Assembly (NCBI RefSeq): GCF_004803755.1
Contig: NZ_CP032311.1
Location: forward strand, 4,852,501 to 4,916,500
Source of the DNA: Pseudomonas sp. DG56-2
GTDB taxonomy: Bacteria; Pseudomonadota; Gammaproteobacteria; Pseudomonadales; Pseudomonadaceae
DNA: 64,000 nt
Reading direction: 5' to 3'
A program made the position numbers and the translations under genes. The notes under the pieces were generated by a model that ran no database searches, had not been told where the DNA came from, and was given only the letters and a program-made list of their open reading frames with translations. How positions within the stretch are numbered: position 1 is the stretch's first letter; each line of letters begins with the position of its first letter. Positions 2,749 through 25,900 of the stretch are shown one piece after another.

Positions 2749-3801
2749 TCACCCCTTCATCGGCCAGGCAGGTTGCTGTTGAGTGATGCAGTGCACGCCC
2801 CCACCACCGTGGGCCAGATGGTTGATCTGCACCGGGACCACTTCACGTCCAGGGAACGCCTTGGCCAATACCTCGGCAGCCGCATGGTCCGCCTCGATGC
2901 CGTAGGCCGGCATGATGATGGCGCCATTGGCAATATAGAAGTTGGTGTAAGAGGCACAGAACACCTCGGCATCGACATCCACCGCCTCGCTCGCTTCGTA
3001 CAGCTCGTGCATTTCAAACCTGCGACCCTGGGCATCGGTGGCCAGCGCCAGCGCCCGACGGTTTTCCCGAGCGACGTGGCCATACACCGAACTCTGGTCG
3101 CGGGTCGCATCGACCAGCAACACGCCAGGACGAGCGAACGCGCAGACGCCATCAACGTGACCATCGGTCATGTCGCCAGTAACGTAATCTGGGTCACCCG
3201 GCAGCCAGATGGTTTTTTTGATACCCAGAAAGCGCGAGAAAATCTCCTCGATCTCGGCCTTGGTCATTCCCGGATTACGGTTAGGGTTGAGCAACACCGA
3301 CTCGGTGGTAATCAACGTACCCTCGCCGTCCACATGAATTGCCCCGCCTTCGTTGCTCAAGGCCGTGCCAAAGCAGTCCAGGCCAAGCGTGTTAAGCACA
3401 CGCCGCGCCAGGCCTTCATCCAGGTCATGCGCCGACTTGCCGCCCCAGGCGTTGAAGCGCCAACTGACACCGGCCAACCCAAACTGGGGATGACAAACAA
3501 AGCTTGGGCCCGAGTCGCGGCACCAGCTGTCGTTCACCGGCAGCTCGATCAACTCGATGTTCACCCCACAGAGTTTACTGGCACTGGCGCGGGCGGAGGG
3601 ATCGACCACCATCTTGACCGGTTCGAAGCGCGCAATCGCATTGGCAACACGGGCAAAGTCCACCTGAACCTGCTCCAGCGTCACCTTCCAGCCGGACTCC
3701 CACAACTGTTGGTTGTGCGGCCAGACCATCCAGGTCGCTGCATGGTTCACCCACTCTGCGGGCATGAACCAACCACTGTTCAGATCGTCATTGCGCTGCA
3801 T
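2749..3801 (-). CDS. aguA: Agmatine deiminase (cytoplasmic)
   Basis: A 350-aa agmatine iminohydrolase that converts agmatine to N-carbamoylputrescine and ammonia. Motifs include WCRDSGPSF, FNAWGGK, SNEGGAIHVDGEG, LNPNRNPGMT, DGHVDG and the C-terminal catalytic loop HGGGGVHCITQQQ, with the nucleophile at Cys338. There is no signal peptide, unlike the paralogue at 1-683. I chose the ATG at 3801 because AAAGGTGGG lies just upstream; a GTG at 3810 in the same frame has poorer spacing. First gene of the minus-strand operon aguA-aguB-binding protein-exported deiminase, divergent from a LysR gene. Confidence 0.96.
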   Translation of the reverse strand: MQRNDDLNSGWFMPAEWVNHAATWMVWPHNQQLWESGWKVTLEQVQVDFARVANAIARFEPVKMVVDPSARASASKLCGVNIELIELPVNDSWCRDSGPSFVCHPQFGLAGVSWRFNAWGGKSAHDLDEGLARRVLNTLGLDCFGTALSNEGGAIHVDGEGTLITTESVLLNPNRNPGMTKAEIEEIFSRFLGIKKTIWLPGDPDYVTGDMTDGHVDGVCAFARPGVLLVDATRDQSSVYGHVARENRRALALATDAQGRRFEMHELYEASEAVDVDAEVFCASYTNFYIANGAIIMPAYGIEADHAAAEVLAKAFPGREVVPVQINHLAHGGGGVHCITQQQPAWPMKG

Positions 3802-5149: not shown

Positions 5150-6331
5150 TTATCGCGCGAAGAAGAACGGACGAATACGCACGCCAACCACGTTGCCCGC
5201 ATACGCCGCAATCAACCATAACCAGCCATGCACGCTACCGGAGGCAATACCGCTGAAGTACGCACCGATGTTGCAGCCATAGGCCAGGCGCGAGCCGTAA
5301 CCCAATAGCAGTCCGCCAATAACCGCAGCTACCAGTGATCGCAAGGGAATGTTCAGGTTTGGCGCAAAGCGACCTGCCAAGCCTGCGGCCAGCAGCGCAC
5401 CGAGGACAATGCCGATGTCCATCACCGTGGTGACATCCTCCCACAGTGGCGAAGCCAGGGCCTTGGCATTGGCCGGTACTTGCCAGAACGCCCAACTGCC
5501 GACGTCTACGCCCAGGCCGCCAAGGGTTTTTGCGCCCCACAGGGCGAATGCCGAGGTGATGCCCCATGGTCGCCCGGCCAGTGCCAGGGTTGCGTAATTG
5601 AGCAACGCCAGGGCCACGGCGCCCCACACCAGCGGCCATGGGCCACGCAGAAAACGACGCAGGCCCTGGTGCTCACTGGGAGGCGCAGTTTCCAGCAGAC
5701 CGTGACGGCGCTTTTCCAACACCACTGTGGTCCATGCAATTACCGCGAATACCGCCAGGCTCACCAGCACTGCCGGCAGCAGGCCAAAGGACTGAACAAT
5801 CGAGGTAGCCGGAAACGATGGCAGCGAGAACCACCAATCGACGTGATGGGTGGCCGATACTGAACCGATGATAAAAAACAGCAGGGTCACCAGCATCCGT
5901 GCGTTGCCGCCGCCGACGGTGAACAAGGTACCGGAAGCACAGCCACCGCCCATCTGCATGCCGATGCCAAAGATGAAGGCACCAAACGCTACCGAAACCC
6001 CGGCCGGAGCCACCAGTCCTTTGACCGGCTGACCGAACAGCGTGCCGGCATCCAGCGCCGGAAAGAACAGCAACACGGCGATGGTCAGCATGACCATCTG
6101 CGCCCGTAACCCTGCCCCGCGGCGTTCGTTGATGAACACGCGCCAAGCCGAGGTAAAGCCAAAGGCGGCGTGATACAGGGTGAGCCCCAAGGCGGCGCCG
6201 ACGATCAACAACAACACCTGGTTGGTGCCGACATAAGCCTTGAGGAACAGGGCGCCGATCAGCAGCAGCGCCATGGCGAACAGCGGCGCACCGAGGCGAC
6301 GTTCAGGCACGATGGGAACAGAAAGACTCAT
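5150..6331 (-). CDS. YeeE/YedE-family sulfur-compound transporter (TsuA-like)
   Basis: A 393-aa multi-pass inner-membrane protein with about 9-10 hydrophobic segments. Two family signature cysteine motifs are present: MGGGCASGTLF in the N-terminal half and YGCNIGAYFSG in the C-terminal half. In characterised YeeE/TsuA these cysteines line the thiosulfate path. The ATG at 6331 (MSLSVPIVPERR) begins the conserved protein; an in-frame extension to 6418 adds no membrane segment. The TusA-like partner YeeD often found beside it is absent here. Function as a thiosulfate or related sulfur importer is inferred from the family. Confidence 0.85.
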   Translation of the reverse strand: MSLSVPIVPERRLGAPLFAMALLLIGALFLKAYVGTNQVLLLIVGAALGLTLYHAAFGFTSAWRVFINERRGAGLRAQMVMLTIAVLLFFPALDAGTLFGQPVKGLVAPAGVSVAFGAFIFGIGMQMGGGCASGTLFTVGGGNARMLVTLLFFIIGSVSATHHVDWWFSLPSFPATSIVQSFGLLPAVLVSLAVFAVIAWTTVVLEKRRHGLLETAPPSEHQGLRRFLRGPWPLVWGAVALALLNYATLALAGRPWGITSAFALWGAKTLGGLGVDVGSWAFWQVPANAKALASPLWEDVTTVMDIGIVLGALLAAGLAGRFAPNLNIPLRSLVAAVIGGLLLGYGSRLAYGCNIGAYFSGIASGSVHGWLWLIAAYAGNVVGVRIRPFFFAR

Positions 6332-6432
6332 GACAATATCCGCGTGGCGATTTTTCAGTTGGCGATTGTACCTGCGCAAGCCAGCAGGCAGTGTAGGATT
6401 CCTGACACCCTCCCCCATCAGCGAGCCACCTT

Positions 6433-6909
6433 ATGCAACTGACTCATCGCCCAGTCCAGGCCGCGGACATCGCCGCCATCTGCTGCTTTCCCCAAGGCCC
6501 CGACGAGCTGTTCTACATGTTCCCCAAGGCCAATTACCCACTGACGCCAGCGCAATTGAGTGACGCAATTACACAGCGAGCCGGCTCGACAGTGGTAGAA
6601 GGCGATGGGACGGTGCTGGCATTCGCCAACTTCTACAAGGCCGAGCAAGGCGGTGTCTGCGCCTTGGGCAATGTGGTGGTAGCCCCTGCGGCCCGGGGTC
6701 ATGGCGTAGCGCGCTATTTGGTGCAGAGCATGATCGACCTGGCCCGCAGGGAGTTCGATGCCCGCGAAGTATGGGTATCGTGCTTCAACAGCAATACTGC
6801 CGGCTTGTTGCTTTATCCACAGCTGGGCTTTGAACCCTTTGCCATCGAGGAGCGCCAAGGGCCTGGCAATACGCGGATAGCCTTGGTGCAGATGAAGCAG
6901 ATGTTGTGA
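6433..6909 (+). CDS. GNAT-family N-acetyltransferase
   Basis: A 158-aa single-domain acetyltransferase. The acetyl-CoA binding motif A is NVVVAPAARGHGVARYLVQSM at about residues 80-100 (V-x3-R-G-x-G-x-A pattern). Motif B with the late Asn is CFNSNTAGLLLYPQLGFEPF. It reads alone on the plus strand, divergent from the YeeE gene and convergent with nrsF, whose stop is 2 nt away. The substrate cannot be assigned. Confidence 0.88.
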   Translation: MQLTHRPVQAADIAAICCFPQGPDELFYMFPKANYPLTPAQLSDAITQRAGSTVVEGDGTVLAFANFYKAEQGGVCALGNVVVAPAARGHGVARYLVQSMIDLARREFDAREVWVSCFNSNTAGLLLYPQLGFEPFAIEERQGPGNTRIALVQMKQML

Positions 6910-6910
6910 G

Positions 6911-7555
6911 CTACCAACGCAACCAGCGCGGCCCGAGCAACGCGCCTAGCAGCGTGGGAATGGCCATGCCCAGCACATACCAGACGCCCCAGAACGGCAC
7001 CTCCATCTCTGGGCAATGCAGGCAGTAGGCCAAGGTCGCAGTGGCGCTCGCCAACAAACCGGCCACTGCACCCGACAGGCGCAACTGAGTAGGTGCAAAC
7101 TCGCGCAAGACACGAATCAACGCAAAGAAGCCCGGCACCGACAACAACACAATGTTGAACGCACAGCTGCGCCAGGTCTGGCCGAAGATCATGCTCAATT
7201 GCTGTTCTTCAGGCACACCGCTCAATACCAGCAACGTCACCGCCCAAACCCCAAGCACGGGCGCGCCAATCCCGCCCCAGCGCAGGCCAACCTCAAGGCC
7301 AGGACGTGCCAACCGGTTGAAGACCAGTAGCGCAGCAACCATCAAGCTTGCCGGCAAGGCGATCTTGCCCCAGAACAACGGTGTTGCCGCCACCACGGCA
7401 AGATCGGCACGCACCCCATACAGCAGCACTGTCAGCACGCTGGCGCCGACAATGGCGATCAGCATGGCAAGGCCAATACGTCGCGTAAACTGCTGCCGAT
7501 CGATCGGTTCGATACCGGTGGCAAGCAGGGAAATCAGGTCGTCGGTTTTCATCAT
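6911..7555 (-). CDS. nrsF: NrsF-like anti-sigma membrane protein (DUF1109)
   Basis: A 214-aa protein with six predicted membrane segments (first at about residues 28-48, last near 190-208) and a short cytoplasmic N-terminus MMKTDDLISLLATGIEP. This is the DUF1109/NrsF layout. In Caulobacter NrsF holds the ECF factor SigF inactive until metal stress; two conserved cysteines matter there. Here Cys residues occur in WRSCAFN and in YCLHCPEMEVPFWG. Its ATG overlaps the stop of the sigma gene by 4 nt, so sigma and anti-sigma are co-translated. Together with the bufferin genes across the divergent promoter this gives a strong functional assignment. Confidence 0.9.
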   Translation of the reverse strand: MMKTDDLISLLATGIEPIDRQQFTRRIGLAMLIAIVGASVLTVLLYGVRADLAVVAATPLFWGKIALPASLMVAALLVFNRLARPGLEVGLRWGGIGAPVLGVWAVTLLVLSGVPEEQQLSMIFGQTWRSCAFNIVLLSVPGFFALIRVLREFAPTQLRLSGAVAGLLASATATLAYCLHCPEMEVPFWGVWYVLGMAIPTLLGALLGPRWLRW

Positions 7556-8121
7556 GTACCTCGAATCAACGCTGCGAGTGCCTTGAGCCCCCGATGGATG
7601 CCAACCTTCACCGCTGACCCGGAAAGCCCGGTCAGATGTGCGGTTTCCTCCACCGACAGCCCCTCCAACTTGACGTGCACAATCGGCAAGCGTTGCTTGT
7701 CTGGCAGTTGCTGCAGCAGTTTACCCAAGTCCCGCTGGGCTTGAGCCGGCGCTTGCTGCTCCTGTGCAAACAGCTCGTCACTGTCCTCCAGTGGGTCGTT
7801 CAAGGCGTCTCGTCGCCCCTGGCCGCGCAAATGATCGGCGAGTTTATAGCGGGCAATAGCCTGCACCCAGGCGGTCAACGGCTGATCGCGCTGATAGCTT
7901 TGACGGGCGTTATGCACCGCCAGCAGCACTTCCTGGAGCACGTCCTCGAGATCGTCCGAGCGCGAATACAGGCGCTTGCGCAAAAAACCTCGAAGGTGCC
8001 CGCTCAGTTGCTGCAGGAACAGTCGATAAGCCTGCGCATCGCCGTCCAGTCCTGCCACCAACAAGCCTTGCAACGCAGCTTCACGCGAACGCAGCAGTTC
8101 ACTCTGTTTAGTTCGGTCCAT
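7552..8121 (-). CDS. sigF: ECF sigma factor (SigF-like) of the bufferin locus
   Basis: A 189-aa sigma-70 family protein of ECF size. Region 2 is visible at about residues 45-95 (DDLEDVLQEVLLAVH, PLTAWVQAIARYKLADHLRG) and region 4 at about 138-185 (LPDKQRLPIVHVKLEGLSVEETAHLTGLSGSAVK). It is followed at a 4-nt overlap by the NrsF anti-sigma gene. It should drive the bufferin operon through the GTAACC-N16-CGAA sites at 8112-8137 and 8220-8245. The start is uncertain: the promoter-like motif at 8112-8137 covers the ATG at 8121, which would leave the ATG outside an autoregulated transcript. In-frame alternatives are a TTG at 8073 and a GTG at 8058, the latter with AAGG seven nt before it. Confidence 0.92.
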   Translation of the reverse strand: MDRTKQSELLRSREAALQGLLVAGLDGDAQAYRLFLQQLSGHLRGFLRKRLYSRSDDLEDVLQEVLLAVHNARQSYQRDQPLTAWVQAIARYKLADHLRGQGRRDALNDPLEDSDELFAQEQQAPAQAQRDLGKLLQQLPDKQRLPIVHVKLEGLSVEETAHLTGLSGSAVKVGIHRGLKALAALIRGT

Positions 8122-8137
8122 CCAGGGCTCTGGTTAC
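8112..8137 (-). promoter_or_regulatory. ECF (SigF-type) promoter motif reading toward sigF-nrsF
   Basis: On the minus strand GTAACC (8137-8132), 16 nt, then CGAACT (from 8115). The same motif and the same 16-nt spacer occur in the other direction at 8220-8245. It matches the SigF promoter pattern as I recall it from Caulobacter (GTAACC-N16-CGAA). It overlaps the first codons of the sigma gene, so either the real start is further in or a second promoter makes the long form. It supports autoregulation. Confidence 0.7.
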
Positions 8138-8219
8138 AGGGGACGAAAAGAAAATAGCTGCCAGAAACGATAGCGTTTTTAACTACCTGGCGAAAAGACA
8201 AAAAAAATTCTGCTGGGCT

Positions 8220-8245
8220 GTAACCCATCGACCAAACCCGGCGAA
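8220..8245 (+). promoter_or_regulatory. ECF (SigF-type) promoter motif of the bufferin operon
   Basis: GTAACC (8220-8225), 16 nt, then CGAACT (8242-8247). A start of transcription near 8251-8255 would give a leader of about 50 nt with GGAG at 8291-8294 before the ATG at 8304. Position, spacing and the twin site at 8112-8137 make a chance match unlikely. Confidence 0.82.
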
Positions 8246-8303
8246 CTACTTCACGAGCCGCAAGCAAAGATGCCCGGCCACCTAACCTTTGGAGTATGAC
8301 GCC

Positions 8304-8585
8304 ATGAAAACTTTCGCCGCTACCGCCGCCGCTCTCGCCTTCGCTTCGATCGCTGGGACTGCCGTTGCCGCTTCGTCCACCGATGCGCCAGCACCTGCCA
8401 TGGAAAAATGCTACGGCGTGGCCATGGCAGGTAAAAACGATTGCAAAGCCGGGGCCGGCACCAGTTGCGCCGGTACAGCAAAAATGGACTACCAAGCCAA
8501 CGCCTGGAAGAACGTGCCTGCTGGCACCTGCACCTCGATCAAAACTCCCAACGGCATGGGCTCGCTGACTGCAAAACAGTCCTGA
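8304..8585 (+). CDS. bufA1: Bufferin-type metallophore precursor (DUF2282)
   Basis: A 93-aa exported small protein. The start ATG at 8304 has GGAG nine nt upstream; an in-frame TTG at 8289 is not credible. A Sec signal peptide spans about residues 1-22 (ends TAVAA). The mature part has four cysteines, Cys36, Cys47, Cys55 and Cys76, in the DUF2282 pattern EKCYGVA, KNDCKAG, GTSCAG and VPAGTC. DUF2282 proteins are the precursors called bufferins; some of their cysteines are modified to thiooxazole-type heterocycles by the partner MNIO enzyme, and the product binds copper in the periplasm. It heads bufA1-bufB-bufC-doxX. The modification state here is inference from the family. Confidence 0.9.
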
Positions 8586-8616
8586 TCCTCGGCAACCGGT
8601 AAAGGGCGAAGCGACC

Positions 8617-9468
8617 GTGAACACACCTTCCTCTCTGAGTGCGAACACCGACTTGGGCGCCGGCCTCGGGCTCAAGGCCGAGCATTACGAAGACGCCGTG
8701 GCCTGCAGGACACCCGGAATGTGGTTCGAGGTTCACCCGGAGAATTACATGGTCGCAGGCCCTCGACTGGAATGGCTACAAGCCGTTGCCGAGCAGCACC
8801 CGCTGTCTTTGCATGGTGTGTCCATGTCGTTGGCCGCCGACCAGTTACCGGATGCCGAGCATCTGTATCGCCTCAAGGCGCTGACCGAACGAGTGCAACC
8901 ACAACTGTTGTCGGAGCACCTGGCCTGGTCTACCTGGCAAGGGCAGTACCACCCGGACTTGCTGCCCTTTGCGCGCAGCCACGCGGCCCTGCAACGCATA
9001 GTCGAGAACATTGACTACGCCCAGGATATCCTGGGCCGCCCGCTGGCGATCGAGAACCCAAGCCACTACACGCACCTGGACGGGCATGACTTCAGTGAGA
9101 TCGACTTTCTCACCGAGCTTTCCCAGCGTACCGGCTGCAGCCTGTTGCTCGATATCAACAATGTGCATGTCAGCGCCCATAACATGGGCTTTGAGGCCAG
9201 CACCTACCTGGATGCATTTCCGGCCCACCTGATCAGCGAGATTCACCTGGCCGGTTACAGTCAGGACGCCAACAGCGACCTGTTGATTGACTCCCACGAT
9301 GCTCCCATTGCCGCCGAGGTGTGGACGCTCTATCTGCGCTTGATAAAACGCATTGGCACGCGTCCTACCCTGATTGAGCGCGACGATCAGATCCCCCCCT
9401 TCGAGGCACTGCTGCGCGAGCGCGACATGGCCCAGTTGCTGCTCGATAGCAACAGTAGACAACCATGA
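8617..9468 (+). CDS. bufB: DUF692/MNIO bufferin-modifying enzyme
   Basis: A 283-aa TIM-barrel protein of the DUF692 family, now called multinuclear non-heme iron-dependent oxidative enzymes (MNIO). It starts at a GTG at 8617 with AAGGGCGA upstream. Likely metal ligands are His66 (SLHGVSMSL), Glu146 (IENPSHY), Asp179 and His184 (LDINNVHVSAHN), Glu209 and His210 (EIHLAGY), Asp226 and His227 (DSHDAP) and Glu254 (IERDD). Family members oxidise cysteine residues of a peptide precursor together with a partner protein. The gene starts 31 nt after the precursor gene and overlaps bufC by 4 nt. Confidence 0.93.
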   Translation: MNTPSSLSANTDLGAGLGLKAEHYEDAVACRTPGMWFEVHPENYMVAGPRLEWLQAVAEQHPLSLHGVSMSLAADQLPDAEHLYRLKALTERVQPQLLSEHLAWSTWQGQYHPDLLPFARSHAALQRIVENIDYAQDILGRPLAIENPSHYTHLDGHDFSEIDFLTELSQRTGCSLLLDINNVHVSAHNMGFEASTYLDAFPAHLISEIHLAGYSQDANSDLLIDSHDAPIAAEVWTLYLRLIKRIGTRPTLIERDDQIPPFEALLRERDMAQLLLDSNSRQP

Positions 9469-10211
9469 GCACTTCAACGCTGGGACAATTCCAGACAGCT
9501 TTCGTCAACGCCTTGTATGGCGGCGAAGCGTCGAATGAGCTGCTTGCACTCACCCAGCAAGTTGGTTTCACGGTGTATCGCAATACCGTGCTCAAAGGGT
9601 GTGTGGATGCCTTGCAGGCCAACTTTCCCTCCGTCGAGCGTCTGGTGGGCAACCCATGGTTCCGCGCTGCTGCTACGGTTCATGCAACCCTGACGCCGCC
9701 CAGTGACGCCCGCCTGATCCTCTATGGAGAGCACTTCGCAACCTTCATTGAGCAATTCGAGCCCGCACAACATCTGCCTTACCTGGCTGATGTGGCCCGC
9801 GCTGACAGGCTGTGGATCGAGGTGCACACCGCGCCTATCGACAGCAGCCTGAACATGCTGGCGATGACCAACCTGGTACCTGAACTGCTCGGTCAACAAC
9901 ACCTGCGCCCGCGCACCGATGTGCGCTGGCAATGGTTCGCCGAACAACCGATCTACAGCATTTGGGACAGTAACCGCAGGGCCGCGCCCGTGCCGGAGCC
10001 GCTTGCCTGGGAGGGTGAAGGGGTATTGATGCGCCGACAGCACGGCCAGGTGCTTTGGCAAGTTCTGAGTGAAGCCGATTGCATCTTTCTCGACGCCTGC
10101 GCCGCGGGCAACTCCCTGGAACAGGCAACCAACAGCGTCCTGACGTTCGACCCAACGCTGGACTTCACCACCCTGCTCGCCCGCCTGCTGGCGGCGGAAG
10201 TATTTGCTTGA
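9465..10211 (+). CDS. bufC: DUF2063 partner protein of the MNIO enzyme
   Basis: A 248-aa protein with the DUF2063 N-terminal domain: LGQFQTAFVNALYGG, VYRNTVLKGCVDALQANFPS and GNPWFRAAA, then YGEHFATFIEQFEPAQHLPYL. In the family this domain presents the precursor to the MNIO enzyme, much as RiPP recognition elements do. Its ATG overlaps the bufB stop (ATGA). The C-terminal half (about residues 140-248) is the less conserved arm. Soluble, no signal peptide. Confidence 0.9.
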   Translation: MSTSTLGQFQTAFVNALYGGEASNELLALTQQVGFTVYRNTVLKGCVDALQANFPSVERLVGNPWFRAAATVHATLTPPSDARLILYGEHFATFIEQFEPAQHLPYLADVARADRLWIEVHTAPIDSSLNMLAMTNLVPELLGQQHLRPRTDVRWQWFAEQPIYSIWDSNRRAAPVPEPLAWEGEGVLMRRQHGQVLWQVLSEADCIFLDACAAGNSLEQATNSVLTFDPTLDFTTLLARLLAAEVFA

Positions 10212-10248
10212 GCAGCGCCCACCCATGTGCCCTTGAATGGAGAACACC

Positions 10249-10722
10249 ATGCACTCGATCAGTGAAACGCCCGACAAACATCCAACCGCCGCTGGCACAT
10301 TCTGGTCGCGTTGCGCAGGGCAACTGCAAGGACTGATCAGCGACTCGTTGCTGTCACTGATCGCCCGCCTGGGCATCGCGGCGATCTTCTTTCTTTCAGG
10401 GCGCACCAAGGTCGAAGGCTTGCTCAGCATCACGCCGAGCACCTATGAGTTGTTTCGTGCCGAGTACGTGTTGCCGCTGCTCCCGCCCTGGCTGGCCGCT
10501 CACCTGGCCACTTATGCCGAACACCTGTTTCCGCTGTTGCTGGTACTTGGCCTGTGCACCCGCTTCGCCGGCTTGGCGCTGCTGGGAATGACCTTGGTGA
10601 TCCAGGTGTTTGTCTATCCCGACGCCTGGCCAACTCACTTGAGCTGGGCAGGTTTGCTGCTGGTGGTGATCGGTCGTGGCGGTGGTCGCTGGTCACTGGA
10701 TCACCGCCTGGGCATCCGTTAG
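10249..10722 (+). CDS. DoxX-family membrane protein of the bufferin operon
   Basis: A 157-aa protein with four predicted membrane segments and the DoxX opening [22 protein letters not shown] chose the ATG at 10249 because TGGAGA lies five nt before it; an earlier ATG at 10237 overlaps that ribosome site. It lies 37 nt after bufC and is probably the last gene of the operon. DoxX proteins are frequent in DUF2282-DUF692-DUF2063 clusters; the role is not settled (redox or maturation step suspected). Its stop overlaps the stop of the convergent permease gene at 10719. Confidence 0.88.
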
Positions 10723-11486
10723 GCCCGCACAAAACGCTGCCTGAGCACATCACTCAAGGCATCCACCAGCAACACCAGCACCAGCATGGCAATGATTACC
10801 GTGCTGGCCTGGGCCTCCTGGAACAGGCTCAAGGTGGTGTAGAGCATCTGCCCCAGGCCACCGGCCCCCACGAAGCCGAGCACGCTGGCCATACGAATAT
10901 TGTTTTCCCAGCGATATAGGCTGTAGGCCAGCAACTGCGGCCAGAGGTTGGGCAAGGTGCCAAAGCAGAAGGCGACCACTTGGCTGCCGCCCTGCAAGCG
11001 AATGGCTGCAGCCGGCTCTGGCGGCGCGTTCTCCAGCGCTTCAGCGAACAACCGGCCCAGCACTCCCGAGGTGTGCAGGGCCAACGCCAGGGTGCCGGCG
11101 TTCGGTCCCAGCCCAGCTGCCAACACGGTCAGCGCGGCCCAGACCAGTTCCGGTATCGCCCGCAGGGCATTGAGCAACAACCGTGCAGCCCCCTGCAGCG
11201 GCCAACCAAAACGCCCGGCAGCTGGCAGCGCCAGCAACAGGCCGAGGATCACCGCGAGCAAAGTACCCAAACCTGACATGGCCAAGGTTTCCAACGCGCC
11301 TTTGCCCACAGCCTGTAAATGCCCGGCACTGAGGTCCGGGCTGAGAAAGCGCGATGCATAGGCCCCCATTTGTCCCAGCCCGCCGTTACCGAACAGCGAC
11401 TGCAAATCGAGGCTGAGGTAGGCGAACGAGGCAAACACGGCCGCCAGCAGGGCAAGGATCAACGAAGCATTGAGCAAGCGTCTCAT
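10719..11486 (-). CDS. PhnE-type ABC permease 2 of a putative selenate importer
   Basis: A 255-aa inner-membrane permease starting at the ATG at 11486, which overlaps the stop of the upstream permease (ATGA). It has about six membrane segments. The BPD_transp_1 coupling loop is [21 protein letters not shown], followed by [12 protein letters not shown], as in PhnE. A longer frame upstream overlaps the other permease and is not used. It pairs with the permease at 11483-12310, the ATPase at 12304-13098 and the binding protein at 13095-13949. A phosphonate role cannot be excluded from sequence alone. Confidence 0.88.
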
Positions 11487-12310
11487 GCCAGCCTCCCGCG
11501 CAGCACTCGGCTGAGTTGGTCCGCCAGCCATACCAACACCAGGAAAGCCAGCAACATGCTCGCCACCTCGGCACCGGCGAACATGCGCATCGACAAATCG
11601 ATCTGTTGCCCGAGCCCTCCGGCGCCAACAAAGCCCATCACTACGGAGGCGCGAATCGCGCACTCCCAGCGATACACTGTGTATGACACAAGCTCCGCGG
11701 CTGCGTCCGGGAGGATGCCGTAGAAGAATGCGCTCAGACGACTACTGCCCGCCTGCAGTAGGGCATGGGCAGGACGCTGGTCGACCGACTCGAAGATCTC
11801 CGCGTACACCTTGCCGAGCATGCCGCTGTAGGTAATGGCGATGGCCAACACCCCGGCAGTCGGCCCCAGGCCCACCGCGCGAACGAACAGCAGCGCCCAG
11901 ACAATCTCCGGCACACTGCGCAGAAAGATCAGCAAGCCACGCACCGGCAGGCGCACCGTGCGTGACCACAGCCCCAAGCGACCACCACGAGAGGCGGCGT
12001 CCATGGACAGCGCCCGGCTAGCCAGCAAGCTGGCAGGAATAGCCAGCATCAACGCCAGGGCCATACCGGCAGTGGCCACCGCCAGCGTTTGCAAGGTGGC
12101 CTGCCAGAGCAAGACGAGAAAATCCGGGTCATGCGCTGGTGGCCAGAAAGCGCTGACGAAATTGCCCATTTCACGACGGTTTTCAGCCTGTAGGAGCACG
12201 CCGGGATTAAGCTCGCTCAACTGAATACCAGGCCAGAGCACGGCAATAATCAGCAGGGTCAGCAACAGCCTGGGCAAGGCTGCAGGGTCGCGTTTTTCGG
12301 CGCTTAGCAT
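11483..12310 (-). CDS. PhnE-type ABC permease 1 of a putative selenate importer
   Basis: A 275-aa permease. The coupling region GILPDAAAELVSYTVYRWECAIR and [13 protein letters not shown] match PhnE. A membrane segment is at about residues 12-30, then a periplasmic stretch and five further segments. Its start lies 7 nt inside the end of the ATPase gene, so the four genes from 13949 down to 10719 form one overlapping unit. Two separate PhnE-like permeases in one operon point to a heteromeric channel. Confidence 0.88.
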   Translation of the reverse strand: MLSAEKRDPAALPRLLLTLLIIAVLWPGIQLSELNPGVLLQAENRREMGNFVSAFWPPAHDPDFLVLLWQATLQTLAVATAGMALALMLAIPASLLASRALSMDAASRGGRLGLWSRTVRLPVRGLLIFLRSVPEIVWALLFVRAVGLGPTAGVLAIAITYSGMLGKVYAEIFESVDQRPAHALLQAGSSRLSAFFYGILPDAAAELVSYTVYRWECAIRASVVMGFVGAGGLGQQIDLSMRMFAGAEVASMLLAFLVLVWLADQLSRVLRGRLA

Positions 12311-13098
12311 CGTGGAATCTGCTGGGGCAGGGCCGGCAAAGGCACTTGAGGCGAAACCAGATGTTCGTTGGCATACAGCGCATCGAGCATGTCTTTGGAG
12401 ACCTCCGCAGCCGGCAGATCGAACATCACCTGCCCTTCGCGAATGCCGATTACCCGTGGAAAGTGCGCCAACGCAAGCTCCACCGCGTGGAGGCTCGCCA
12501 CCAGGGTGACACCACGTTCGGTAGCATGTTGATTGAGGGTTCTCAGGCTGTGTTCGGCCAACACGGGGTCCATGGCCGAAACAGGCTCATCCGCCAGCAG
12601 GATTTCCGGTTGCTGATACAGGGCGCGGGCAATGCCGACACGCTGCAACTGCCCGCCAGACAACTGCCCGCACTGGGCAAAGACCTTTTCCGCCATGCCC
12701 AGCCGCGACAGCACCGCGCGCACACCGGGTACATCCGAGGGGTGCAACAGATTGAGCAACCCACGCAAGGTGCTCCATTGGCCCAGACGCCCAGCCAGCA
12801 CCGCTGTCACCACGCGTTGGCGCGGCGGCAGTGGCGGCGCTTGATGAACCATACCGATACGCGCGCGCAGACGTTGGCGCGCACCTGCAGAAAGGCGCCA
12901 AGGCGCTTCACCGAGCAGCTCCACGCTACCGCTGGTGGGCGCCAGGGCACTGGCTATCAGGTGCAGCAGGCTGGACTTGCCGGCGCCCGAAGGGCCGATG
13001 ATTGCCAGCCGCTCGCCGGCCTCGACGCTCAGATCGACTTCAAGCAAGGCCTGCACCGCACCATGGCGCAGGCTGACGCAGTTGAGCTGGATCGTCAC
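12304..13098 (-). CDS. PhnC-type ABC transporter ATPase
   Basis: A 264-aa ATPase. Walker A is GPSGAGKS at 35-42, the signature LSGGQ at 146-150, Walker B ILLADEP at 166-172, and the H-loop His is in VASLHAVELAL. The best family fit is PhnC. It overlaps the binding-protein gene by 4 nt and the next permease gene by 7 nt. The context next to selD and selU suggests it energises selenium oxyanion uptake. Confidence 0.92.
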   Translation of the reverse strand: MTIQLNCVSLRHGAVQALLEVDLSVEAGERLAIIGPSGAGKSSLLHLIASALAPTSGSVELLGEAPWRLSAGARQRLRARIGMVHQAPPLPPRQRVVTAVLAGRLGQWSTLRGLLNLLHPSDVPGVRAVLSRLGMAEKVFAQCGQLSGGQLQRVGIARALYQQPEILLADEPVSAMDPVLAEHSLRTLNQHATERGVTLVASLHAVELALAHFPRVIGIREGQVMFDLPAAEVSKDMLDALYANEHLVSPQVPLPALPQQIPRC

Positions 13099-13949
13099 TT
13101 GAGCAACTCAGCAGCGCGAGCGGCCTCCTCGATACCCTTGTAGTTGTCCGGGCTGGTGGCGATGAATCGGCTGGCAGCCTGCAGGTCGAGGATCGCCTTG
13201 TCTGCGGGCTTGGCCGGATCAAGGTCAAGGAAGGCCTGTTTGATCTTGTCTTTCAAGGCCGGATCGAGGCTGCCGCGAACGGTCCAGTTGTAATCGTAGT
13301 AACTCGGGGTGGTGGCGAACACCTTGACCTTGTTGGTATCGACCTTGCCCGAGGCGACCAGCTTGTCCCAGACGCTGGCGTTGAGCACGCCGGCATCGAC
13401 CTTGCCGGCCTGTACCCAGGCTGCAGTCGCATCGTGAGCCCCGGAGTAGGCCACCCGACTGAAGTAGGTTTCCGGCTTGATGTTGTTGTCCTTGAGCATG
13501 AAGTAGCGCGGCATCAGGCTGCCGGAGGTGGACGAGATCGAGCCGAAGGCAAAGGTTTTGCCCTTGAGATCGGCCAGGCTCTCGATTTCCGGGTTGGCGG
13601 TGATGAATTTGCTGGTGAACTCGGCATCCTGCTCACGCTGCACCAGTGGTGTCGCGGTCGGGCTCTTCAGGTGTACCTGAACAAAGGTGAAGCCGCCCAG
13701 CCAGGCCATGTCCAGACGGTCGGTGGCCAATGCCTCGACCACAGCCGGATAGTCGGAAACCGGCACGAACTCGACCTTCATGCCTAGCTTCTGCTCCAGG
13801 TATTGGCCCAGCGGCTTGAATTTGCGCAGCAGTTCGGTGGGTGCCTCGTCGGGGATGGCACTGACGCGCAGGGTGTCGGCCGCTTGGGCCAGGTAAGTCG
13901 AACACGACAGTACGAGGCCGGCGAACAGCGCCAGGGGACGTTTGAGCAT
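13095..13949 (-). CDS. Putative selenate/phosphonate-type ABC transporter binding protein (PhnD-like)
   Basis: A 284-aa periplasmic binding protein with a signal peptide ending TYLAQAAD at about residue 23. PhnD-like motifs are VSAIPDEAPTELLRKFKPL, YPAVVEALATDRLDMAWLGG and GSISSTSGSLMPRYFML. A subfamily of PhnD-like proteins is annotated as putative selenate-binding because its genes sit beside selenophosphate synthase and 2-selenouridine synthase genes. That is exactly the neighbourhood here: selD starts 125 bp away on the other strand. Substrate is inferred from context, not from ligand residues. Confidence 0.85.
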   Translation of the reverse strand: MLKRPLALFAGLVLSCSTYLAQAADTLRVSAIPDEAPTELLRKFKPLGQYLEQKLGMKVEFVPVSDYPAVVEALATDRLDMAWLGGFTFVQVHLKSPTATPLVQREQDAEFTSKFITANPEIESLADLKGKTFAFGSISSTSGSLMPRYFMLKDNNIKPETYFSRVAYSGAHDATAAWVQAGKVDAGVLNASVWDKLVASGKVDTNKVKVFATTPSYYDYNWTVRGSLDPALKDKIKQAFLDLDPAKPADKAILDLQAASRFIATSPDNYKGIEEAARAAELLK

Positions 13950-14073
13950 GAGGGGTTCTCCGGTTCAATAGCGGGGAATGAGCCAGCACTGGGCTAGCTG
14001 CGGAAATTATAAGAGGCATCGGCGCAAAGACCAGCTTTGCTACAATCGGGCTTCACGATTTTTCGAGGTGCGT

Positions 14074-15108
14074 ATGAGCGAGCCGATTCGTCTGACCCAG
14101 TACAGCCATGGTGCCGGTTGCGGCTGCAAGATCTCTCCGAAGATGCTGGAGGTGATCCTTGCCGAAAGCGGTACACAGGCGCTGGACCCTAAGCTCTGGG
14201 TTGGCAATGCCTCGCGTGATGACGCGGCAGTTTACGCGCTGGACGATGAACGTGGCGTAGTTTCGACCACCGATTTCTTCATGCCTATCGTCGACGACCC
14301 GTACGATTTCGGTCGCATCGCCGCCACCAACGCCATCAGCGATATCTACGCCATGGGCGGCGATCCGCTCATGGCCATTGCCATTCTCGGCTGGCCGATC
14401 AATGTATTGGCCCCGGAAGTAGCCCGCGAAGTGATTCGCGGCGGTCGCGCGGTGTGCGCCGAAGCCGGTATCCCGCTGGCTGGTGGTCACTCGATCGATG
14501 CGCCAGAACCTATCTTCGGCCTGGCCGTGACCGGCGTTGTGCAAAAGCGCCACATGAAACGCAACGACACCGCCGTGCAAGGTTGCCGCCTGTACCTGAC
14601 CAAGCCTCTGGGCATCGGCATCCTCACCACCGCCGAGAAAAAATCCAAGCTGCGCGACCAGGACAAAGGGCTGGCCCGCGACTGGATGTGCACGCTGAAC
14701 ACCCCCGGCAGCCGCTTCGGCAAGCTTGCAGGCGTCAAGGCCATGACCGACGTTACCGGTTTCGGCCTGCTCGGCCATCTGGTTGAACTGGCAGACGGCA
14801 GCGGCTTGAGCGCACGCCTGAATTACAACGCCGTTCCGCGCCTACCGAGCGTCGAGCATTATCTGGCTGAGGGCTGTGTACCCGGCGGCACCTTGCGTAA
14901 TTTCGAAAGCTATGGCGAAAAAATCGCGCCGTTGAACGACGAGCAGAAACACCTGCTGTGCGACCCGCAAACCAGCGGTGGCCTGTTGGTAGCGGTAACA
15001 CCTGAAGGTGAAGCAGAGTTTCTCGCCCTGGCCGCTGAACTGGGCTTGAACCTGGCACCAATCGGCGAACTGGTCGAGCGACAGAGCCATGCGGTTGAGG
15101 TGCTGTAA
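14074..15108 (+). CDS. selD: Selenide, water dikinase (selenophosphate synthase)
   Basis: A 344-aa enzyme that makes selenophosphate from selenide and ATP. Start is the ATG at 14074, with GAGGTG just upstream. The glycine-rich N-terminal active site is HGAGCGCK, with Cys16 (a Cys, not a selenocysteine form) and Lys19. Other motifs are [40 protein letters not shown] and [10 protein letters not shown]. The stop shares one base with the selU start (TAATG). It supplies the selenium donor for the next gene's product. Confidence 0.97.
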
Positions 15109-16211
15109 TGCGTGACAACACCACCGACTACCGCCAGCTGTTTTTGCACGATGTACCCATGATGGACATGCGCGCCCCGGTCGAATTTGCCAAGGGCGCC
15201 TTTCCCAACGCGATCAACCTGCCACTGATGAACGACCTTGAGCGGCAAAAGGTTGGCACCTGCTACAAGCAGCAAGGCCAACAGGCCGCCATCGCCCTCG
15301 GCCATCAATTGGTCAGCGGGCAGACCAAGGACGAGCGTGTTGCTGCCTGGGTCGCCTTTGCCCAAGCCAACCCTGAGGGCTACCTCTACTGCTTTCGCGG
15401 CGGCCTGCGTTCGCAGATCGTCCAGCAATGGCTGCTAAGCGAGGCAGGCATTGAGTATCCCAAGGTGGTTGGTGGCTACAAGGCGCTGCGTAACTTTCTC
15501 CTCGACACTACCCAGAGTGCGGTGGCCGAGTGTGATTTCGTATTGATTGGCGGCCTGACGGGCACCGGCAAGACCGAGGTGCTGCAAGACCTGAACAACG
15601 CCCTGGATCTTGAAGGCCATGCCAACCATCGTGGCTCCAGCTTCGGGAAGCGCGCCACCGGGCAACCGGTGCAAATCGATTTCGAAAACAGCTTGGCCAT
15701 CGACATCCTGAAGAAACGCGCACGCGGTCTCGAACAGTTCGTGCTCGAGGATGAAGGTCGAATCGTTGGCAGTTGCTCGCTGCCCCTGGAACTGTACCAA
15801 GGCATGCAGCAGTACCCGCTGGTATGGCTGGAAGACAGTTTCGACAATCGCGTCGAGCGCATTCTTGGCGACTATGTGACCAACCTGTGCGCCGAGTTCG
15901 TGGCGCTGCATGGCCCTGAGCAAGGCTTCACGCTGTTCGCCGCGCGCCTCAACCAGAGCATGGGCAATATCCTCAAGCGCTTGGGTGGCGAACGCTACCA
16001 GCGGCTTTCAACGTTGTTGCTGCAAGCCCTGGAAGAACAACAGCGCAGCGGTGCAGTCGACCTGCACCGTGCCTGGATCAGTGGTTTGCTCAGCGAGTAC
16101 TACGACCCGATGTACGCCTTCCATCGCAACAGCAAGGTCGAGCGCATCGAGTTTTCCGGCAATCATGTCGAAGTCCGCGAATACCTGCGAGCCCGCGTAG
16201 CCCGACGCTGA
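15108..16211 (+). CDS. selU: tRNA 2-selenouridine synthase
   Basis: A 367-aa enzyme (also called MnmH/YbbB) that replaces the sulfur of 2-thiouridine at the tRNA wobble position with selenium through a geranylated intermediate. The N-terminal rhodanese domain has its active Cys95 in [11 protein letters not shown]-loop [10 protein letters not shown] is at 148-157. Translationally coupled to selD. It ends 8 nt before the convergent gene at 16220. Confidence 0.96.
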
Positions 16212-23881: not shown

Positions 23882-25900
23882 TTAAACCCGCTCAAACGAT
23901 TTGACACGTGCGCCGTCCGGCGAACCGGTAGCCAGGCCCAGGGCCTTCATGCGCTCGCCTTCGATACGCGCCACTTCCTCGGCAGGAACCATGTAGCCCT
24001 GGTCGTCACGCGCAGCGTGGGCGACGAAGACAGCGATGGTGCCAACCAGGCTGGCTGCAACCAGCCACCAGATGTGCCAGATGAAAGCGAAACCGAATAC
24101 GGTGAGCAACGCACCCATGAACACACCGGTAGAGGTGTTGTTCGGCATGTGGATCGCTTCGTACTTGGCCGGAACCTTGTAGGCGCCGCCGGCTTGCTTG
24201 GTTTCGTGCCAGGCATCGAGCTCGACGTTTTCAGGCATGGTGGCGAAGTTGTAGAACGGAGGTGGCGACGAAGTCGACCATTCCAGGGTACGGCCGCCCC
24301 ATGGGTCGCCGGTCACGTCCATGTTGTCCTTGCGGTCGCGGATCGAAACGTACAGCTGGATCAGCTGGCAAGCGATACCGAACAGGATCAGCACGGCGCC
24401 GAATACGGCTACGTACAGGTAGGGTTCCCACAGTGGGTTGTCGGAGTGGTTCAGACGACGGGTCATACCCATGAAGCCCAGTGCGTACAGTGGCATGAAG
24501 GCCACGTAGAAACCGGAGATCCAGAACCAGAAGGCAGCTTTGCCCCACTTCTCGTTCAGGGTGAAACCGAAGGCTTTCGGGAACCAGAAGGCGAAGCCGG
24601 CAATGTAGCCGAATACCGCACCACCGATGATCACGTTGTGGAAGTGAGCGATTACGAACAGGCTGTTGTGCAGAACGAAGTCAGCACCTGGAACAGCCAG
24701 CAGTACGCCGGTCATACCACCAATGGAGAAGGTAACCATGAAGCCCAGGGTCCACAGGACCGGCGCGGTGAAGCGCAGACGGCCTTGGTAGATCGTGAAC
24801 AGCCAGTTGAACAACTTCACCCCGGTCGGAATCGAGATCAGCATGGTTGCCAACCCGAAGAAGGTGTTGACGCTTGCGCCCGAACCCATGGTGAAGAAAT
24901 GGTGCAGCCATACCGCAAAGCCCAGTACCGCGATCGCGCCCGAAGCGTAGATCATCGACTTGTGGCCGAACAGACGCTTACCTGCGAAGGTCGAGGTCAC
25001 TTCCGAGAACACACCGAAGGCCGGCAGGATCAGGATGTAGACCTCAGGGTGACCCCAAGCCCAGAACAGGTTGACGTACATCATCGGGTTCCCACCAAGC
25101 TCGTTGGTGAAAATGTGGAAGTCCAGATAACGGTCAACAGTCAGCAGTGCCAGAGCGGCGGTCAGAATCGGGAACGAAGCAACGATCAGTACGTTGGCCC
25201 AGGTGCAGGTCCAAGTGAAGATCGGCATGTCCATCAGCTTCATGCCAGGGGCACGCATTTTCAGCACGGTGGCCAGGAAGTTGACCCCCGTTAGCGTCGT
25301 ACCTAGCCCCGATAGCTGTAGCGCCCAAATGTAGTAGTCGACACCCACGCCCGGACTGTATTGGATACCCGCCAGCGGTGGATAAGCGACCCAGCCAGTC
25401 TTGGCGAATTCACCAACACCCAAGGACACGTTGACCAGCACGACGCCGGACACCAGGAGCCAGAAGCTCAGGGAGTTGAGGAACGGGAAAGCAACGTCAC
25501 GCGCACCGATCTGCAGAGGCAGGGCCAGGTTCATCAGGCCGGTGAAGAATGGCATTGCCATGAAGATGATCATGATCACACCGTGAGCGGTGAAGATCTG
25601 GTCATAGTGTTCGGGAGGCAGGTAGCCTTCGGAACCGCCGGTGGCCATGGCCAACTGCGTACGCATCATGATGGCATCGGCAAAACCGCGCAGCAGCATG
25701 ATCATCGCGACGATGATGTACATCACCCCGATTTTCTTGTGGTCGACCGAAGTCAGCCACTCGGACCACAGGTAGGTCCATTTTTTGAAATAGGTGATTG
25801 CACCAACGAGCGCGAGACCGCCGAGCGCAATCATGGCAAGTGTCACCATGACTATCGGCTCGTGATACGGAATCGCATCCAGACTTAGTTTACCGAACAT
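23882..25900 (-). CDS. cyoB: Cytochrome bo3 ubiquinol oxidase subunit I
   Basis: A 672-aa catalytic subunit with about 15 membrane segments. It reduces O2 with electrons from ubiquinol and pumps protons. Visible metal ligands are in [13 protein letters not shown] (low-spin heme His), [15 protein letters not shown] (CuB His and cross-linked Tyr), WLHHFFTMG (CuB His pair) and [12 protein letters not shown] (heme O3 and low-spin heme His). Three nt after cyoA. Full length for the family. Confidence 0.98.

Follow-up and report, generated by a model that had tools for sequence, protein, structure and literature searches.

Bufferins are widespread copper-handling peptides. Within the genome of Pseudomonas sp. 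DG56-2 (5.82 Mb, a single contig), the stretch of 64,000 nucleotides analysed here (NZ_CP032311.1, positions 4,852,501 to 4,916,500; the window) carries six bufferin-type genes, all intact, between positions 6911 and 10722 (Table 1). A preliminary description of this DNA listed a DUF2282 precursor, a DUF692/MNIO enzyme, a DUF2063 partner and a DoxX protein on the plus strand, with a divergent sigF/nrsF pair, and Pfam identifies all six in the order described. Its range of 7552..10722 holds for sigF to doxX but leaves out nrsF. The locus is very probably a Buf1 (DUF2282) bufferin locus under dedicated control by SigF, an extracytoplasmic function (ECF) sigma factor, and its membrane anti-sigma factor NrsF. 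It is a normal locus of a kind already catalogued in Pseudomonas as Pep1 (PMC8719888; publications are cited here from the portions available). What appears new in the sequence is the wiring of sigF, a conserved variant in which a sigma-F promoter box lies across the start codon.

Table 1. Genes and promoter features of the buf locus (positions within the window; scores in bits with the model cut-off in brackets)
Feature	Position	Strand	Description
nrsF	6911-7555	-	membrane anti-sigma factor; PF06532 234.4 (26.8)
sigF	7552-8121	-	ECF sigma factor, Caulobacter SigF type; Sigma70_r4_2 43.1 (25.7)
sigma-F box at sigF	8110-8137	-	GTAACC-N16-CGAACT, exact; covers sigF start codon (ATG 8121-8119)
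UP-element-like A/T-rich block before sigF box	8146-8156	-	edges set by eye
sigma-F box, buf operon	8220-8247	+	GTAACC-N16-CGAACT, exact; bufA start 56 bases downstream
bufA	8304-8585	+	Buf1/DUF2282 precursor, 93 amino acids; PF10048 88.4 (22.4)
bufB	8617-9468	+	MNIO (DUF692) bufferin maturase; GTG start; PF05114 MbnB_TglH_ChrH 310.3 (25)
bufC	9465-10211	+	DUF2063 partner protein; PF09836 63.2 (27.2)
doxX	10237-10722	+	DoxX-family membrane protein; PF07681 63.2 (23.6)

Mechanical calling of open reading frames (ORFs) offers TTG 8289 as an alternative bufA start. ATG 8304 is preferred because a Shine-Dalgarno-like GGAG, noted by eye, lies upstream of it. On the minus strand the nrsF start overlaps the sigF stop codon, and a GAGG motif precedes the nrsF ATG. 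A search of the entire genome gave a single MNIO gene and a single DUF2282 gene, both in this locus. The closest MNIO gene among 16 loci of named genomes, at 99% identity, belongs to Pseudomonas arcuscaelestis.

With NF050167 (MNIO family bufferin maturase; cut-off 310), BufB reaches 345.8 bits, and it can be aligned to the solved MNIO proteins 3bww and 8hci. Compared with 3bww, it preserves the HG, HL, EN, DxNN, HxAG, DxH and ERD blocks, which presumably hold the iron ligands. Buf1 loci have an adjoining gene for a DUF2063-RRE partner, and the DUF2063 part of such a protein is recognised by PF09836 in BufC, encoded next to bufB; phmmer found no solved relative of BufC. BufA has a hydrophobic N-terminus ending by eye in AVAA, a candidate Sec signal, and cysteines at positions 36, 47, 55 and 76. 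Their spacing (+11/+8/+21) recurs in 70 of 72 rows of relatives, the two exceptional rows being two pieces of one precursor, that of L007 (P. morbosilactucae MAFF 302030, 3201-3459; loci and sites are referred to by L numbers), whose neighbouring genes match well. The bufA leader shows no RNA structure beyond expectation (z -0.26). The earlier reading as a bufferin locus is supported by the maturase score, the four cysteines of the DUF2282 precursor, and a SigF/NrsF pair with two Caulobacter-type promoters.

Three family models weigh against this assignment. BufA reaches 23 bits with NF050166 (BufA2 precursor; cut-off 60), a score that rules it out as a Buf2 bufferin. DoxX, at 43.9, is under the cut-off of 80 of the HvfX model NF050144, and NrsF scores 118 bits with the equivalog NF042994 (AntiSigF_NrsF), where 300 is required. 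The last cut-off is reached in only one of 398 genomes (L096), and the model looks narrow.

Buf1 carries modifications on its central cysteines and a disulphide between the outer pair, and it chelates copper in the periplasm (PMC12452194). 5-Thiooxazoles are found in all characterised MNIO-PME1 products (PMC13097082). By analogy with these published relatives, BufA would bind copper and carry thiooxazoles. It would be synthesised with a Sec signal and, as suggested by Caulobacter Buf1, cytoplasmic BufB would, with help from BufC, probably convert Cys 47 and Cys 55 to thiooxazoles. After export, Cys 36 and Cys 76 would form a disulphide and the mature peptide would sequester copper in the periplasm.

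The resemblance to Caulobacter proposed in the preliminary description extends to the whole gene set, which equals CC3252-CC3257: six genes, with sigF-nrsF beside the buf operon and GTAACC-N16-CGAA promoters (PMC3511200). The DG56-2 genome differs in having one operon and no second bufferin. In Caulobacter the regulon is induced by copper and a sigF::Tn5 mutant is copper-sensitive (PMC8224329). It is unlikely that the locus primarily serves another stress (gold, silver, chromate, cadmium, oxidants or reactive chlorine) with copper as a secondary function. Caulobacter SigF does respond to chromium and cadmium (PMC3511200), the gig cluster of Cupriavidus metallidurans to gold, silver and copper (PMC8224329), and a Brucella ECF16 pair to hypochlorous acid (PMC8315932). 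However, loss of sigF harms Caulobacter under copper and not under chromate or cadmium (PMC8224329), and Buf1 chelates copper (PMC12452194).

The sigF product scores 300 bits against PRK12536 (cut-off 250). NrsF has cysteines at 131, 178 and 181, of which 131 and 181 are the two conserved cysteines that characterise SigF/NrsF (ECF16) pairs; both positions are common to Caulobacter and the window (PMC3511200). By comparison with Caulobacter, NrsF in the inner membrane would hold SigF until metal or thiol stress at Cys 131 and Cys 181 frees it. Freed SigF would then read two promoters, one before the buf operon, giving a normal leader, and one at sigF.

The exact motif GTAACC-N16-CGAACT occurs twice in the window, and allowing up to two mismatches gives five places against 2.7 expected. 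Across the 5.8 Mb genome, the relaxed long pattern TGTAAYY-N16-CGAAYT finds two sites, both at the buf locus, and its reversed control none. The short form GTAACC-N16-CGAA is uninformative, as it has 15 places and its reversed control 20. Of its 13 places outside the locus, 12 lie within an ORF of at least 90 amino acids on one strand (among them L026, which reads CGAATT). The last, L024, carries CGAATC, with a 92-amino-acid ORF 35 bases downstream. A larger SigF regulon is unsupported, as the short pattern falls under its control and the long relaxed pattern has only two sites. The SigF regulon of this genome is probably restricted to the two units of the buf locus.

The pairing of box and sigma factor recurs across the genus. 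A DUF2282 gene is present in 177 of 298 Pseudomonas genomes and a SigF homolog (E <= 1e-40) in 56 of 398. The bufA loci examined fall roughly into two groups: some have a sigma-F box, and the others lack both the box and sigF. Of the 29 best-scoring bufA loci in other genomes (L034-L062), the box is present at 15, each in a genome that also has sigF. The other 14 lack the box; their genomes, characterised only as lying outside the 56 with a SigF match, include none of the latter. In three of the 15 (L041, L048, L062) sigF is on a different contig from the box-bearing bufA. The retention of the box in these genomes indicates that it is tied to the sigma factor and not to position. BufB of the box-less group is mostly more distant, at 42-50% identity, with L055 an exception at 66%.

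A similar gene set is present on a conjugative Pseudomonas plasmid, L063 (NZ_CP083747.1). Besides sigF and a single bufB-bufC-doxX set, it has NrsF-type (DUF1109) and DUF2282 genes in two copies each, and a chemotaxis receptor gene and an HD-domain gene lie between these genes. The MNIO gene found there (66.7% identity) occurs in four plasmid records from Stenotrophomonas and Pseudomonas.

The box at sigF is distinguished by its position. The TAA of its GTAACC is an in-frame stop, the ATG falls in the 16-base spacer, and the -10 element CGAACT forms codons 3-4. This order is found in 55 of 57 Pseudomonas sigF genes and the spacer ATG in 56. Of the two departures, L090 has the spacer ATG with its in-frame stop elsewhere, and L089 has its ATG 6 bases beyond the -10. 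A divergent second box lies within 500 bases in 52 of the 57 loci, with an A/T block in front. In the 57 aligned sigF sequences this block sits ahead of the -35, from roughly -20 to -11, and the bufA side has it likewise. The region after the sigF box shows no notable RNA structure (z 0.55).

The arrangement of L089 is shared by L007 and L008 (P. chlororaphis), which also start 6 bases beyond the -10. In all three the sigF start looks duplicated, with ATC in place of the spacer ATG and a second copy of the start region 6 bases after the -10. This layout would yield a nearly leaderless message.

With Pseudomonas sigF genes aligned on the spacer ATG, all 56 have CGA as codon 3 and 53 of them have ACT as codon 4. 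From codon 6 onward in all 57 genes, CGA accounts for 141 of 1123 Arg codons and ACT for 35 of 361 Thr codons; these and the following counts include related genomes, which are not independent. Hence, nucleotides and not just amino acids are held at codons 3-4. A coincidence of coding is rejected by this bias together with the -35 conserved 16 bases upstream.

Translation was located from the pattern of substitutions in 56 of the 57 genes (all but L089), each aligned from its own ATG. In frame, the ratio of synonymous to nonsynonymous codon differences at codons 10-14 is 1.01, compared with 0.11 and 0.08 for the two other frames. The excess is weaker at codons 5-9 (0.20 vs. 0.07 and 0.05). A 55-gene count without L089 and L131 gave higher ratios (1.25 and 1.08), and the lower 56-gene values are used here. 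Twenty-one of the 56 genes, among them the window's, lack any ATG, GTG or TTG at codons 5-14, and codons 10-14 of these genes are constrained too (0.80 vs. 0.12 and 0.07). Translation must therefore start before codon 10 in these 21 genes, where the spacer ATG is the sole in-frame start candidate.

These data bear on whether SigF could activate its own synthesis through a slightly shorter protein begun at codon 9 or 10 of the SigF-driven message. An ATG, GTG or TTG is found at one of these codons in 33 of the 56 genes, at a spacing approximating that seen outside the host's class. Such positive autoregulation is nonetheless quite improbable, given the 21 genes that lack a start and still translate codons 10-14, and the conservation of the spacer ATG in nearly every gene.

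Outside the class, an in-frame start lies at least 9 bases past the -10 in 23 of 23 homologs with a box. Boxes were sought with up to 3 mismatch points, and at L098, alone among the 24 loci from outside the class, there was none. The window's sigF has no such downstream start at codons 5-14, a comparison made here and not a published family criterion. As the loose downstream-start rule behind this count would also score 35 of the 56 Pseudomonas genes, the contrast rests on the 21 genes without a start and on the kept spacer ATG. The homolog nearest to Caulobacter NrsF (L096) also has its sigF start downstream of the box, whereas the window's box covers the start.

Within the class, nine homologs besides the window's, one of the same family, have mixed layouts: two start only in the box, five also downstream by the same loose rule, and two within 8 bases of the -10. 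This rules out a start-spanning box as a uniform trait of the entire class, and the layout is firm for Pseudomonas only. No box was found within 140 bases before the aligned sigF stretch in L011, L014, L016 and L064, of which L016 and L064 have one farther upstream. L064 is the gig operon of C. metallidurans CH34, which like the window has bufA, bufB (61% identical to the window's) and a sigF-type gene. Its nearest exact box is 239 bases before the aligned stretch and thus does not cover the start. In Herbaspirillum and Duganella (L011-L014) the gene behind the box divergent from bufA seems to be not sigF but one whose start resembles that of NrsF, possibly an extra NrsF under SigF control. 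In L011 and L014 a sigF-nrsF pair is farther off.

In the usual geometry of ECF promoters, transcription begins several bases after the -10. A SigF-driven transcript from the sigF box would therefore start past the spacer ATG, near codon 6-7, and would retain nrsF without encoding full-length SigF. It would most likely supply NrsF alone, making the feedback negative and not positive. Released SigF would thus drive the buf operon and nrsF but not sigF, and may also occlude sigF. The reading preferred here, held tentatively and at slightly under an even chance, is that in Pseudomonas and part of its class the promoter spanning the sigF start would yield an nrsF-only message while polymerase blocks sigF, so that active SigF could not amplify itself. 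The genes, boxes, geometry and conservation are seen directly, while the transcript start and the feedback are deduced from them.

Several points weigh against this feedback model. The transcript starts are assumed from general ECF geometry, and an alternative ATG, GTG or TTG is present at codons 5-14 in 35 of the 56 Pseudomonas genes. No second sigF promoter was found, though one is required if the box cannot yield SigF. As nrsF overlaps the sigF stop codon, the two genes may be translated in a coupled manner, which would weaken an nrsF-only message. In Caulobacter, sigF rises under copper (table values 2.17-4.70, PMC8224329); the start codon of that sigF is downstream of its box, unlike the window's.

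The box may instead act mainly as a roadblock, with SigF-polymerase over the start region shutting off a housekeeping promoter just upstream and negative autoregulation arising by occlusion and not through an nrsF message. Box, leader and start codon do share the same DNA, and competition between SigF and a second regulator has been suggested at the Caulobacter sigF promoter (Kohler et al., PMC3511200). A shared housekeeping promoter upstream of sigF was looked for and not found. No shared sigma-70 -10 is evident in the A/T block, where TAnnnT occurs in 15 of 57 sequences against 17.8 expected after shuffling, and a consensus promoter search of 6300-11000 found none. The A/T block is also present on the bufA side, as in a working promoter. 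Overall, a mainly roadblock function appears somewhat unlikely.

A comparable arrangement to the proposed nrsF-only message is known from Corynebacterium glutamicum, where a SigH-controlled promoter drives rshA alone (PMC3489674). If the feedback model holds, both systems would have a sigma-dependent promoter inside the sigma factor gene serving only the anti-sigma factor. They differ in that the anti-sigma families are unrelated and that the C. glutamicum promoter starts 62-66 nt upstream of rshA instead of lying across the sigma start codon (PMC3489674).

The preliminary description saw no obvious other metal genes around the locus. Among its ten neighbours, to which this check was confined, there is indeed no copper exporter, but selenium-related genes flank the locus and, 13 kb downstream, there is cyoB (23882-25900), which encodes a subunit of a haem-copper quinol oxidase. 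On one side (5150-6418) are a YedE-like membrane protein, at 135 bits below the cut-off of 350 of the selenium YedE/FdhT model, and a GNAT-like gene. On the other side (10719-16211) is a selenium run with a putative selenate ABC substrate-binding protein (TIGR04553, 372 bits), two PhnE-like permeases, a PhnC-like ATPase, SelD and MnmH. GNAT and PhnE genes also flank the buf locus in L003, L004 and L009; no match to these flanks was found in L005-L008.

The value of the locus as a new system for study, as first suggested, is lessened by how common such loci are in Pseudomonas, where they were catalogued as Pep1. In P. fluorescens the Pep1 cluster holds DUF2282, DUF692, DUF2063 and DoxX genes together, as in the window, and was presented as a putative peptide cluster; the available parts of that article (eLife 2021, PMC8719888) make no mention of sigF/nrsF or promoters. 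The start-spanning sigF layout was not found in the literature on ECF autoregulation, SigF/NrsF, ECF16 or Pseudomonas bufferins, in a search that mostly excluded subscription journals.

With one locus and an apparently two-promoter regulon, this system is simpler than that of Caulobacter, and experiments are easy to do in Pseudomonas. The sigF layout poses a testable question on sigma/anti-sigma balance, for comparison with Caulobacter, whose sigF is reported to be weakly autoregulated under chromium or cadmium stress (Kohler et al., PMC3511200). If the feedback model is true, one 28-bp element would serve as promoter, translation start and feedback brake. The copper-buffer operon would then be expressed in a short, self-limiting pulse, to which L089, L007 and L008 would be the self-amplifying contrast.

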